From NCBI RefSeq assembly GCF_900177375.1, contig NZ_FWZU01000001.1, positions 558,001 to 622,000 on the forward strand: a DNA stretch of 64,000 nt. Reading direction: 5' to 3'. The stretch's first letter is position 1. Each line of letters opens with the position of its first letter. Below are positions 46,850 to 52,537 of this stretch, in pieces. The DNA comes from Desulfovibrio gilichinskyi. Lineage in GTDB: Bacteria > Desulfobacterota > Desulfovibrionia > Desulfovibrionales > Desulfovibrionaceae. Made by a program: the position numbers and the translations under genes. The notes below the pieces were generated by a model, which ran no database searches, was not told where the DNA came from, and saw only the letters and a list, made by a program, of their open reading frames with translations.

Positions 46850-47626
46850 ATGGCAGATTTTAAAGATTTATCTAATGCTCTAGCAGATGAAGTTTTAAAT
46901 GATATTGCAGACACCTTTTTTAGTGCAAGAAAGGATATTGATGATTCTTTGGAGTATTTAGATACCTTGTCAAAGCAACTTTTAGAAAAAGTTGATGGAA
47001 TATTCAAGTCATGCGCTTTGCTTCAAAAGGTTTGTCTTGGAGAAGACGGATATAAAAAATTTTGGGAACTGGCTGAAATTAACCGGAATATTTTTAAATT
47101 TCCCAAGCAGACTGAATGTTCTCGTTTTGAGGATACGCCGACTTTTTCGCTGACAAGTAAAAGTGAGTATACTAAATGGGTTAGTCTTGCTTATCACCAG
47201 CTTGCTTCGCGCATAGAAGTCTATATGAATGGAGTTTTTACCGATGATGGATCTCATCATGGTCGTAAAATGAGGTCTGTAAATTTTATGGATTTTAATC
47301 TTTTTGCAGAAGAGGTTAACCGCAAAATTGATAAAGTTAACAACAATACCTCTCCTTCAAATGTGCTTAAATTCGCCAAGTCGCTTGATCATGAAGCTGT
47401 AGAAAAAGAAAAAATTGCAGGATGTGTAGGTCCTGAATGTGCCGTTATAGACGGTCAGATGGCTTTTAAGCCGATTAATATTGGAGGGTTTGGTTTACCG
47501 GATTTTCCAGAATTGCCAAACGATGACGCTAGTCTTTCTTTTCTTAGTGACTTTTGCGCCAAGATGTATGCAGAGAATAAAATTCAAGTGAAAGAGTTGT
47601 TAAAAGAATTGCGGGAAAGTCTTTAA
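46850..47626 (+). CDS. Hypothetical protein with helical N-terminal half
   Basis: A 258-residue cytosolic-looking protein. The N-terminal ~70 residues (VLNDIADTFFSARKDIDDSL, LDTLSKQLLEKVDGIF) look like coiled or amphipathic helices, and the middle is mixed. A Cys pair lies in IAGCVGPECAVIDG near residue 195. I do not recognise a family. It is 15 bases upstream of a secreted protein gene on the same strand, so the two are probably co-transcribed. Confidence 0.6.
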   Translation: MADFKDLSNALADEVLNDIADTFFSARKDIDDSLEYLDTLSKQLLEKVDGIFKSCALLQKVCLGEDGYKKFWELAEINRNIFKFPKQTECSRFEDTPTFSLTSKSEYTKWVSLAYHQLASRIEVYMNGVFTDDGSHHGRKMRSVNFMDFNLFAEEVNRKIDKVNNNTSPSNVLKFAKSLDHEAVEKEKIAGCVGPECAVIDGQMAFKPINIGGFGLPDFPELPNDDASLSFLSDFCAKMYAENKIQVKELLKELRESL

Positions 47627-47641
47627 TTCAGGAGCCTTCAG

Positions 47642-48136
47642 ATGAAAAAAGTGTTTGTATTATTTATTTTTGTTCTGACTGTATGGAGCTTTTCTATATC
47701 GGCTGTTGCTGCTCAGGAAATGGCTGTTCCGGATGCAGAATCAAAGCCTGCTCCCGTGAGTGATAATACGAAAGACATTAATAAAAATGACGGATTAGCT
47801 GTAGTTGTTGAACATTTTGGAGATGATGAGTTAGGCGGTACTCTTGCTTTAAAGTTAAAGGAAAACTTTAGGAAATCTGTCTTGTTCAGATTAGCTGATA
47901 AAAAACAAAAATCCGTTCGAATCAGAGTTGTTTCCCGCAGTGAGTTTAATGAAAGACCGGAAATAGGTTCAATTTATTCGGTTGTATGGACTTTTGCAGA
48001 AAGTGAGGATGTGGTTCCGTTTTACCTTGATGAGCGTATTGGAACCGTTAATGTTACAAGCGTTGATACCACTGCTGCAAAACTTATGAACATAACTGAT
48101 GAAATCACAACTCGATATAAATTTTTGTTTGAATAG
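47642..48136 (+). CDS. Secreted protein of unknown function
   Basis: A 164-residue protein with a signal peptide ending near AVAA-QEMAV (residue 24) and an acidic, proline-containing linker (about 25-50). A compact domain follows (AVVVEHFGDDELGGTLALKL, SVRIRVVSRSEFNERPEIGS). The pattern is a short beta/alpha fold, like small domains found in periplasmic regulators, but no family is recognised. AGGAGCC precedes the ATG. It follows the unknown gene at 46.8 kb and is closed by a strong terminator. Confidence 0.6.
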   Translation: MKKVFVLFIFVLTVWSFSISAVAAQEMAVPDAESKPAPVSDNTKDINKNDGLAVVVEHFGDDELGGTLALKLKENFRKSVLFRLADKKQKSVRIRVVSRSEFNERPEIGSIYSVVWTFAESEDVVPFYLDERIGTVNVTSVDTTAAKLMNITDEITTRYKFLFE

Positions 48137-49446: not shown

Positions 49447-50136
49447 ATGAAAAATAAAATATTAGTACTTATATTGTTGGCGGCTGGAATAATTCTATTT
49501 TTTGCCTTTGATCTTGATAGATTTCTTACCTTGAACTATTTAAAGAACTCAAGACAGGAATTCCAAGCATTTTATGATTTGCATCCATTCAGTTCTGTCT
49601 TCGGATTTTTTTTAATTTATGTTGCTATTGTCGGTCTTAACTTGCCAGGAGCTGCGATACTGGGCCTTGCCGGAGGAGCTCTTTTCGGTTTTACCACCGG
49701 CGTGATAACCATTTCGTTTGCAAGCTCTCTCGGAGCAACAATTGCCTGTTTTTTCTCGCGATATTTATTTAGAGACTATGTGCAACGGAGGTTTGGAGAT
49801 AAGCTGGAGAAAGTCAACAACGGAATTAAGAACGAAGGTGCATTCTATTTATTCACAATGCGCCTTATTCCGGCTATTCCTTTCGTTGTTATCAATCTGG
49901 TTATGGGGCTTACTCCTATAAGGCTTCGAACTTTTTACTGGGTCTCTCAGGTAGGAATGTTACCCGGAACAATGGTTTTTGTTAATGCCGGAAAAGAGCT
50001 TGGAAAAATTACTTCTGTATCTGATATAGTTCAGCCGAGCTTAATAATTTCTTTTATGGTCTTAGGATTTTTTCCACTTTTTGTCCGTAAAGCAGTTAGT
50101 TTTGTAAGAGCAAGAAATACTGATAAAACTGCATAA
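49447..50136 (+). CDS. TVP38/TMEM64 (DedA-superfamily) membrane protein
   Basis: A 229-residue protein with about six hydrophobic segments. The family core is clear: IYVAIVGLNLPGAAILGLAG, GATIACFFSRYLFRDYV, RLIPAIPFVVINLVMGLTPI. Members act in membrane lipid handling (DedA-type) or undefined transport. It is 25 bases upstream of the first cyclic-nucleotide-binding gene in the same direction. A joint transcript is possible but a functional link is unproved. Confidence 0.85.
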   Translation: MKNKILVLILLAAGIILFFAFDLDRFLTLNYLKNSRQEFQAFYDLHPFSSVFGFFLIYVAIVGLNLPGAAILGLAGGALFGFTTGVITISFASSLGATIACFFSRYLFRDYVQRRFGDKLEKVNNGIKNEGAFYLFTMRLIPAIPFVVINLVMGLTPIRLRTFYWVSQVGMLPGTMVFVNAGKELGKITSVSDIVQPSLIISFMVLGFFPLFVRKAVSFVRARNTDKTA

Positions 50137-50161: not shown

Positions 50162-51358
50162 ATGGCCAGATCTCCTTTAACGTCAATGACGACTAAGACA
50201 TCTCCTACGATTAAAAATTACCATAAAGGTAAGATTATTTTCCATGAAGGGCAGGAAAGTAACGTTGCTTACATGATTAAATCCGGTTCAGTTAATGTTT
50301 TCAAAAATATAGATAATAAAAAAACGGTCTTAATGACTCTTAACCGTGGTGATATTTTTGGAGAAATGTCGCTTTTAGCGCATGAAAAACGTTCTGCCAG
50401 TGCTGAAGCCGCAAGTTACTGTGAATTAGTTCCGTTGACAAAAGAGATTATGAACAGGCTGCTTGAAGCATCGCCTGTAACTGTAAGAAAAATTGTAGAA
50501 CTTCTGGCCGCGCGGGTTTTAAGGGTAGATACTGAAGCCGTTACAGTTGATGAAGGTGGGCCGTTTCTCTCTCTGGCTACTATTTTAGATCTTGCATACA
50601 AAGATTATGCGTACACTCCAAGAGACAAGAAACGTGAAATAGAAAATTATGATATGGGGCTGTCTGTAAAATCATTTACCGAAACAGTAAAAAGTTTTGC
50701 AGTCTTTTCCGCCATTGAAATAGATTCATTTCTTCAAACAATTTTTAAGCTTAGATTGATTGATATTAAGTCAAAGTCGAAATGTCATAAAATTGCTTTT
50801 ACTGAAAAATATATCAATATTCCTGATTGTAAGGAGTTTATGCCTTCTCTTAGAAGGTTGTATTCAGAAGTGAAGGAGATTGGAGCTGAAGTTGAATATC
50901 GAATGAATTTTATGACTTTCAGTGACCTTGCGGTTAGAACCGGGAGTCGACCTGAAGTTATCTACAACAAAGTGATGAAAGAAGATTTTCCAGAAAACCT
51001 GTTCTTTTTTAATAGGGCTAAAGCTTTAAAATGGAGTCAGGATAAGGAACCTGATTTTTTTAAAAAATTTAAGCGGCCCAAAAAAGCCTTGAGTGAAATT
51101 GAAAATGTTAATGATTTAATTTTTATTGATAATCCTACACTGCAACAGGCGTTGAAGTCTTTTGATTACCATAGAATCTCTATTCTATATTCTGCGGCTG
51201 ACGAGCAGAATAAAGCTAAAATTTTATATAATATTAATAAAAAACAAGCGTCTGTACTTCAGTCAGAACCTCCACCCGTTCGGAATGTCAACGATTTAGA
51301 TGTATTGGAATGTTCAGACGAAGTAATAGATCTAAGTAAAAAAATGAAAGGGTTATAG
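50162..51358 (+). CDS. cNMP-binding protein with FliG-like C-terminus (copy 1)
   Basis: A 398-residue protein. Residues about 15-125 form a cyclic-nucleotide-binding (CRP-like) domain (IIFHEGQESNVAYMIKSGSV, RGDIFGEMSLLAHEKRSASA). The middle (about 135-290) matches nothing I recognise. The C-terminal ~60 residues (about 310-370) read NDLIFIDNPTLQQALKSFDY and SILYSAADEQNKAKILYNIN, which resembles the C-terminal domain of the flagellar switch protein FliG. No DNA-binding HTH is visible, so it is not a normal CRP regulator. A paralogue follows 42 bases later. Confidence 0.7.
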   Translation: MARSPLTSMTTKTSPTIKNYHKGKIIFHEGQESNVAYMIKSGSVNVFKNIDNKKTVLMTLNRGDIFGEMSLLAHEKRSASAEAASYCELVPLTKEIMNRLLEASPVTVRKIVELLAARVLRVDTEAVTVDEGGPFLSLATILDLAYKDYAYTPRDKKREIENYDMGLSVKSFTETVKSFAVFSAIEIDSFLQTIFKLRLIDIKSKSKCHKIAFTEKYINIPDCKEFMPSLRRLYSEVKEIGAEVEYRMNFMTFSDLAVRTGSRPEVIYNKVMKEDFPENLFFFNRAKALKWSQDKEPDFFKKFKRPKKALSEIENVNDLIFIDNPTLQQALKSFDYHRISILYSAADEQNKAKILYNINKKQASVLQSEPPPVRNVNDLDVLECSDEVIDLSKKMKGL

Positions 51359-51400
51359 CTTGATGATGCCAAGAGAAATCTTTGTTTACGGAGTTGCAGA

Positions 51401-52537
51401 GTGAACTCTTTTAAACCGGAGTCAATAACGTTTTCTAAAGGTGACCTTATTTTCAGTGAAGGGGATATGGGCAGCGTTGCATATATGATCACCAAAGGAA
51501 CTGTTAATATTGTTAAGCAGATTCACGGAATTAATAATGTTCTGGCTACGCTTGGCCCCGGGGAAATATTTGGAGAAATGGCTATAATTTCGAAGAATCC
51601 CAGAGTTGCAGGGGCGGAAGCCGAAACCAGTTGTACACTTATGGTTTTAACGGCTAAGCTTATTTTAACTTTGCTTAAAAAGAGTCATCCTACAGTATTT
51701 CACCTTACACGGGTGCTGGCTGCAAGGCTTGCTACTGCTAATAAGAATATAACTGAAAACAGAAGCGGTAACATCTGGATGACCATGTGCCGGCTTCTTG
51801 ATCTCAAATACAGAATATTTACAAACTCTCCAGATCCTGACAAAGATTTTGGTGTTAATTACAAAGAATTTTGCTCTGAACTTACCACTATTATTAACAT
51901 TTCAGAGTCTGAAGTGGAAAGGATGATTACTGCCGCGTGTTCTTTCAATCTTATAAAAAAAAGCAAGATGGTAAGCAGGGTTTATCTTTCAATTATTGAT
52001 CCGGAGCATTTTTTGGAAGTTTCTGAAACTTTATCTAATGATGTTAATAGATTCGTTGGAAATAATTGTTATAGCGAATACGTGGATATTCAGGATTTTT
52101 CTGATATGTTTGATTCACTTCCGGAGCTGATCTATAAAAAAATCGGCGTTGGCGATTTCCCTGAAGATATTTGTGTTTTACACAAAGGTGCTACTGTTAA
52201 GTGGGCTGAAAAGAAAGGTGATGATTATTTTCAGGAAAACAAGAGAAAGCGCAAGTCCATTGAAGAGTTGGAGGGTGTTAACGATATTGTTTTTGTTGAC
52301 ATAGGCACTTTGAAACAGGTTTTCAGTAGACTTGGATATTATAAGCTTGGAATTCTACTCACAATTGCAGAGGAAGACGGCAGAGACAGAATCCTAGCAA
52401 CTATTTCTGAAAAAATTGCAAATGCAATTACCAAAGAATCAAAAGGGTTAGATGCGATTGATCAGAATGAAGCCGATGAAGTTGAAGAAGAATTACTTGA
52501 GATAATTAGAGAGATTAAATCTGGCAATAGGGAATAA
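51401..52537 (+). CDS. cNMP-binding protein with FliG-like C-terminus (copy 2)
   Basis: A 378-residue paralogue of the preceding gene, starting with GTG. The N-terminal domain is cNMP-type (LIFSEGDMGSVAYMITKGTV, GPGEIFGEMAIISKNPRVAG). The C-terminus is the clearest FliG-C match: VNDIVFVDIGTLKQVFSRLG, then LLTIAEEDGRDRILATISEK, then DEVEEELLEIIREIK. This follows the FliG order (D-x-x-x-L-Q-x-V-L-R, L-x-x-A-S-E-x-x-R-x-x-I-L-x-x-x-S-x-x, then E-x-x-Q-x-x-I). The middle region differs from copy 1 only in details. Binding of cAMP or c-di-nucleotide is not shown. Confidence 0.72.
   Translation: MNSFKPESITFSKGDLIFSEGDMGSVAYMITKGTVNIVKQIHGINNVLATLGPGEIFGEMAIISKNPRVAGAEAETSCTLMVLTAKLILTLLKKSHPTVFHLTRVLAARLATANKNITENRSGNIWMTMCRLLDLKYRIFTNSPDPDKDFGVNYKEFCSELTTIINISESEVERMITAACSFNLIKKSKMVSRVYLSIIDPEHFLEVSETLSNDVNRFVGNNCYSEYVDIQDFSDMFDSLPELIYKKIGVGDFPEDICVLHKGATVKWAEKKGDDYFQENKRKRKSIEELEGVNDIVFVDIGTLKQVFSRLGYYKLGILLTIAEEDGRDRILATISEKIANAITKESKGLDAIDQNEADEVEEELLEIIREIKSGNRE

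Follow-up and report, generated by a model that had tools for sequence, protein, structure and literature searches.

A CRP-Derived Receptor Family with a FliG Torque Domain, a Possible Nucleotide-Gated Partner of an R90-Less Stator

Two tandem genes in the window, the 64,000-nucleotide stretch of DNA analyzed here, belonged to a protein family that joins a cyclic-nucleotide-binding domain and a CRP-type winged helix to a C-terminal FliG torque domain (FliG_C), and judging from sequence comparison, the most likely docking partner of its most widespread member is a dedicated stator ring of the MotA type that lacks the FliG-positioning arginine. The family was recognized by its domain homology, fold, operon linkage, co-occurrence with a MotA subtype, and residue patterns. 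We put at about even the prospect that these proteins are CRP-derived receptors whose FliG torque domain docks the dedicated stator as a nucleotide-gated clutch or adaptor, with the tandem copies as modulators. A differently framed reading, in which a CRP-derived receptor with a captured FliG torque domain is the nucleotide-gated partner, either a clutch or a private soluble rotor, of the R90-less stator and the tandem pair are possible antagonists, is offered more tentatively.

The window carried two paralogous open reading frames in a row, as an earlier note on this DNA had described, and all of the peptides quoted in that note were present in their translations (Table 1). The two copies were 30% identical, lay in tandem on the plus strand with a spacing of 42 nt, and each had the predicted N-terminal nucleotide domain (cNMP_binding). 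A birA-like gene, named by eye, followed copy 2, and the order VTT gene, copy 1, copy 2, birA was intact in 16 of the 17 genomes of the genus, the same 16 in which orthologs of both copies were found. The VTT gene is a conserved neighbor of the pair and at most a candidate member of the system. The tandem pair is a genus-specific duplicate located away from motAB; in the protein tree, where branches were long, copies 1 and 2 were not recovered as sisters. One genome of the genus, G009, retained the pair only as fragments with stop codons (G009:C2:300762-301231, L139), and the pair is therefore dispensable there. Elsewhere in the window (46850-48136), two adjacent ORFs of 258 and 164 aa had no convincing Pfam match; their counterparts at locus L008 showed 50% and 54% identity.

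Table 1. Features of the tandem pair and its upstream neighbor, in window positions
Feature	Position	Strand	Details
VTT-domain (DedA-type) gene	49447..50136	+	PF09335; 25 nt upstream of copy 1
Copy 1: cNMP-binding/CRP-type winged helix/FliG_C protein	50162..51358	+	398 aa, ATG start
Copy 1 cyclic-nucleotide-binding domain, residues 18-103	50213..50470	+	PF00027, E 1.9e-20
Copy 1 FliG_C domain, residues 313-395, weak alone	51098..51346	+	PF01706, 22.9 bits
Copy 2: architecture as in copy 1	51401..52537	+	378 aa, GTG start
Copy 2 cyclic-nucleotide-binding domain, residues 10-94	51428..51682	+	PF00027, E 3.5e-19
Copy 2 degenerate CRP-type winged helix, residues ~120-211	51758..52033	+	Structural match, hhalign 90.9%
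Copy 2 second small helical segment, residues ~225-282	52073..52246	+	Predicted helices
Copy 2 FliG_C torque domain, residues 289-377	52265..52531	+	PF01706, E 9.6e-7
Copy 2 torque-helix stretch with K338, K345, and E346	52412..52438	+	Alignment to FliG

The FliG torque domain is part of the flagellar C-ring. Its presence had been claimed for both copies; in the Pfam search the claim held for copy 2 (29.5 bits, cut-off 23.3), and the match of copy 1 (E 1.1e-4) fell just under the same cut-off, scoring 25.0 bits in a genome-wide search. FliG_C was matched by all 11 aligned relatives (best 1.4e-12), and a search of PDB chains with the family profile (E<=10) returned 12 sequences, of which 11 were FliG (best 5.5e-9) and the sole exception was a ribosomal protein at 0.15. 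By these sequence comparisons, the FliG_C homology of the family is solid and above chance. The full-length model of copy 2 was low in confidence (pLDDT 64.8, pTM 0.32) and poorest in the C-terminal part, which was therefore modeled alone (77.6). Foldseek, one of the checks that the earlier note had proposed, gave weak E-values for this part (best 0.011), and the case for the FliG_C fold was made by the VIA Z gap, from an alignment covering 36 chains, together with the sequence profile. Structural alignment to FliG_C gave 16-20% identity over 85-90 residues. This low identity, and the middling Z that helical folds reach by arrangement alone, would suit a generic helical interaction module that makes no stator contact, a reading taken up below with the charge positions.

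The torque domain was common to FliG and the family, but the remainder of FliG was not. The family was without the N and middle domains: no PF14841 (FliG_M) match was found in either copy by Pfam at E<=1, and the PF14842 match in copy 2 was weak (0.024) and placed on the FliG_C region. On the NCBIfam whole-FliG model the two copies scored 15.3 and 17.3 bits (cut-off 226.7). Across the family (99 distinct sequences after removal of 9 duplicate genes), the MFxF hinge was absent, with L in its first column in 90 sequences and E in its second in 83, and K264 and R297 of FliG were not conserved; the FliG_C of the family is instead fused to a nucleotide receptor. That the torque domain is carried at all would allow these proteins to be FliG substitutes built into the C-ring, but such a role was rejected on the missing FliG_M and hinge and is very improbable, the whole-FliG scores and the complete FliG of this genome also speaking against it. 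In total, FliG_C was matched five times in this genome of 3.96 Mb and 14 contigs: in the true FliG, in both window copies, in a motA-linked paralog, and in a FliG-like protein of 368 aa at L003 (703-1809), which adjoined a glutamine-synthetase-like ORF, named by eye. The only Pfam match of the L003 protein (E<=0.001) was FliG_C at residues 13-103 (29.2 bits), and the N and M domains of FliG were absent by Pfam.

The N-terminal half of the family resembled CRP/FNR regulators. The G-E and R of the nucleotide pocket were kept, with G58 and E59 (copy 2 numbering) each present in 99 of the 99 sequences and R68 in 95, and a search of the genome gave two matches to the class III cyclase domain and one to CYTH. 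Residues 1 to ~214 of copy 2 structurally matched whole CRP-family factors, in which a cyclic-nucleotide domain and a winged helix follow in the same order: Thermus CRP (4ev0) over residues 2-211, Clr (7pza/7pzb) over 2-214, and Bd2879 (9sfa) over 7-221. The large rmsd of these matches was taken to reflect domain orientation. In hhalign, a profile of residues 112-215 matched the C-terminal part of a CRP-like set (21 of 77 candidates, chosen by length) with a probability of 90.9 and an E of 1.1e-6, for a database of one; the FliG_C part, used as a control against the same set, reached a probability of 0.9. Because copy 2 matched whole CRPs in structure and the winged helix in profile, the earlier statement that these proteins have no HTH was wrong in terms of fold. 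The family differs from CRP/FNR regulators in an acidic recognition helix and in ~165 extra residues that end in FliG_C. Within these, the segment at ~225-282, which we take to be possibly AlpA/MerR-like, had no convincing Pfam match in copy 1 or copy 2. Bd1971, a cAMP-sensing EAL enzyme of Bdellovibrio, differs from the family in that its output is an EAL phosphodiesterase, as described in an excerpt of PMC6717892.

With residues 1 to ~214 matching CRP-family factors over their whole length, among them Bd2879 and Clr in complex with DNA, and with a winged helix related by profile, the proteins might be stator-responsive transcription factors, in which the winged helix would bind DNA, FliG_C would sense or be sequestered by MotA, and the stator state or cAMP would set expression. 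The charge of the winged helix was divided on this point: its mean net value was positive in the proteins encoded next to motA, hereafter motA-type (+3.5 and +3.9), and in copy 1 orthologs (+1.0), but was -2.4 in copy 2 orthologs. Moreover, the expected recognition helix was acidic (consensus SQxEID in motA-type proteins), and in 64 motA-type proteins the winged helix was the least conserved of four segments (entropy 1.78 versus 1.34-1.55). A stator-responsive transcriptional role is unlikely on this evidence.

The link to the motor came from a third paralog in the same genome, whose stop codon overlapped the start of a motA gene followed by motB. The genome had six MotA/ExbB and seven MotB_plug matches; the linked MotA was PomA/MotA-like (3.3e-39), and the linked MotB had plug and OmpA domains in all three cases scanned. 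Among 297 genomes of the order, 66 carried the family (bits >60 and a match covering the middle and FliG_C), comprising all 17 genomes of the genus and 49 others. All 66 lay within one bacterial family, probably Desulfovibrionaceae. True FliGs appeared in the family search at E 4e-9 or worse and aligned only from about position 79 on. In a sample of 395 genomes of the phylum (E<=1e-10), seven matched, of which four were carriers from the same bacterial family; the other three matches were confined to positions 82-163 and lay in FliG-length frames.

In all but one of the 66 carrier genomes, motA was immediately preceded by the gene, as seen in 63 of 64 fetched loci and, for G237 and G297, from coordinates. 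Among 65 motA-type genes scored for spacing, including the MAGs L014 and L015, 46 overlapped motA by 4 nt and 14 by 1 nt; the remainder comprised gaps of 3, 11, and 58 nt, one split motA match, and L014, whose contig stops ~30 nt past the gene and so leaves its motA out of view. The split match (L161, genome G290) divided the linked motA in two, by mutation or assembly error. A profile of the linked MotA (E<=1e-60) found 65 of the 297 genomes, which were the 66 carriers minus G029, so that receptor and MotA subtype occurred together in 65 genomes, the receptor alone in 1, the MotA subtype alone in 0, and neither in 231 (Fisher p 2e-65, kinship ignored). The operon and the residue patterns share descent within a single bacterial family, and these counts are therefore not independent events. 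The stator linkage of the family is solid. An idea of the earlier note, that the window proteins are motor-linked sensors, gained from the FliG_C homology and from the motA linkage of their relatives, but the window copies themselves are not beside motAB.

Several loci departed from the usual arrangement. In genome G213, a second, diverged family member was encoded past the linked motB in the same orientation (L148, 6136), an extra copy outside the genus. Among the matches listed in a scan across phyla (best 80 loci), a Poribacteria MAG (L015, 7115-9917) had the receptor-motA-motB order in another phylum, with 30% identity; transfer, ancient origin, or mis-binning may account for it.

The linked MotAs constitute a distinct subtype. 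In an alignment anchored by PomA, 64 of them, from 63 genomes of the same bacterial family and L015, were compared with 40 other MotAs, 3 from this genome and 37 drawn from 16 genomes, both carriers and non-carriers of the family; 3 of 40 fetched MotA regions (L206-L208), which had no MotA match, were dropped. At the position of E. coli R90 (PomA R88), none of the 64 linked MotAs had R, the residues being S in 38, A in 23, and L, G, and T in 1 each, whereas E98 (PomA E96) was kept in 63. All 40 other MotAs kept the equivalents of both R90 and E98. In L015, the MotA carried L in place of R90 and K in place of E98. Three further MotAs from outside the family (L229-L231), additional to the 40, were canonical R-type by eye, with no family match alongside. 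In a quick tree, one branch split the linked from the other MotAs (SH-aLRT 100). An excerpt of PMC12505986 names R90/D288-D289 and E98/R281 as contact pairs, and according to an excerpt of PMC7564593 the contact of MotA R90 with FliG D289 matters more for stator positioning and that of E98 with R281 more for torque.

A stator without its FliG-positioning arginine, found in 297 genomes only together with its own FliG_C protein, could point to a private 5:2 motor, possibly non-flagellar, in which MotA'B' would turn against a soluble FliG_C protein and not against the flagellar C-ring. All but one of the 66 carriers have FliG, however, and the linked stator resembles MotAB/PomAB in having a PomA/MotA-like MotA and a MotB with plug and OmpA domains, the absence of the R90 equivalent in 64 of 64 linked MotAs being its point of difference; we therefore consider a private motor unlikely. 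By FliG_M, FliG was found in 263 of the 297 genomes and in the same 65 carriers (Fisher p 0.002, kinship ignored), and the assembly of the carrier without it was 82% complete. A Zorya defense system was also considered and was rejected, as the linked MotA had no PADLOC match at E<=0.01; in the same search the linked MotB matched ZorB models, and the receptors matched the nucleotide-domain parts of Pycsar-type models, with copy 2 matching one further model weakly (0.0048).

The charges through which FliG meets the stator were retained in part in the family. With the FliG of this genome as the ruler, K338, K345, and E346 of copy 2 corresponded to E. coli FliG R281, D288, and D289, and in E. coli numbering position 281 was basic and position 289 acidic in 96 of the 99 sequences each. 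Position 288 was acidic in 60 of 64 motA-type genes versus 4 of 32 tandem copies, namely three copy 1 orthologs and one copy 2 ortholog out of 16 each, and 15 of the copy 2 orthologs had K or R there. In motA-type genes, positions 281 and 289 ranked within the top 12 of 89 columns by conservation. Only 1 of the 99 sequences lost both charges, with V at 281 and Q at 289; it came from G029, the carrier without a linked MotA, and the three MotAs of that genome examined were R-type. A single charge was missing in four motA-linked members, with N at 281 in L109 and L169 and Q at 289 in L106 and L170, and neither charge is therefore indispensable. These four members are what a generic interaction module would lead one to expect, but the motA linkage in 65 of 66 carriers, the conservation of both positions, and the loss of both charges in the sole carrier without a linked stator all count against such a module, which is improbable. 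If the acidic residue at 289 normally pairs with R90, its retention beside an R90-less MotA means that it would need another partner, and the contact would therefore not be canonical throughout.

For the clutch or adaptor that we favor, we infer from sequence a physical binding, a ligand, an action, and a role of the tandem copies as follows. The FliG_C domain would bind the cytoplasmic face of MotA via the retained charge pair of basic 281 and E98, and cyclic-nucleotide binding would alter the exposure or oligomerization of the FliG_C domain. In this way the protein would serve as a clutch or docking adaptor under nucleotide control, setting when the auxiliary stator engages with the flagellar motor and when it disengages. 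For the tandem copies, with their altered torque-helix charge, modulation of this stator or competition for it is probable, a role suggested solely by paralogy.

PilZ motor brakes of the YcgR type are second-messenger receptors that act at the stator-rotor interface. Their likeness to the family lies in the proposed role only; no PilZ domain was found in either copy by Pfam scan at E<=1, and the nucleotide domain and FliG fold of the family are unrelated to PilZ. Among the matches listed in a search of open-licence PMC articles by title and abstract start, none described FliG_C and a cyclic-nucleotide domain within one protein, and an excerpt of PMC9389320 did not mention such a protein.

A torque domain on a receptor without ring-forming domains, paired with a stator that lacks R90, would provide a natural experiment on the pairing of stators with rotors. 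The architecture suggests that cyclic nucleotides could reach the motor directly, by a path other than that of the PilZ brakes, and the receptor and its MotA subtype would make a defined pair for binding assays, charge swaps, and cryo-EM in bacteria with multiple stators.
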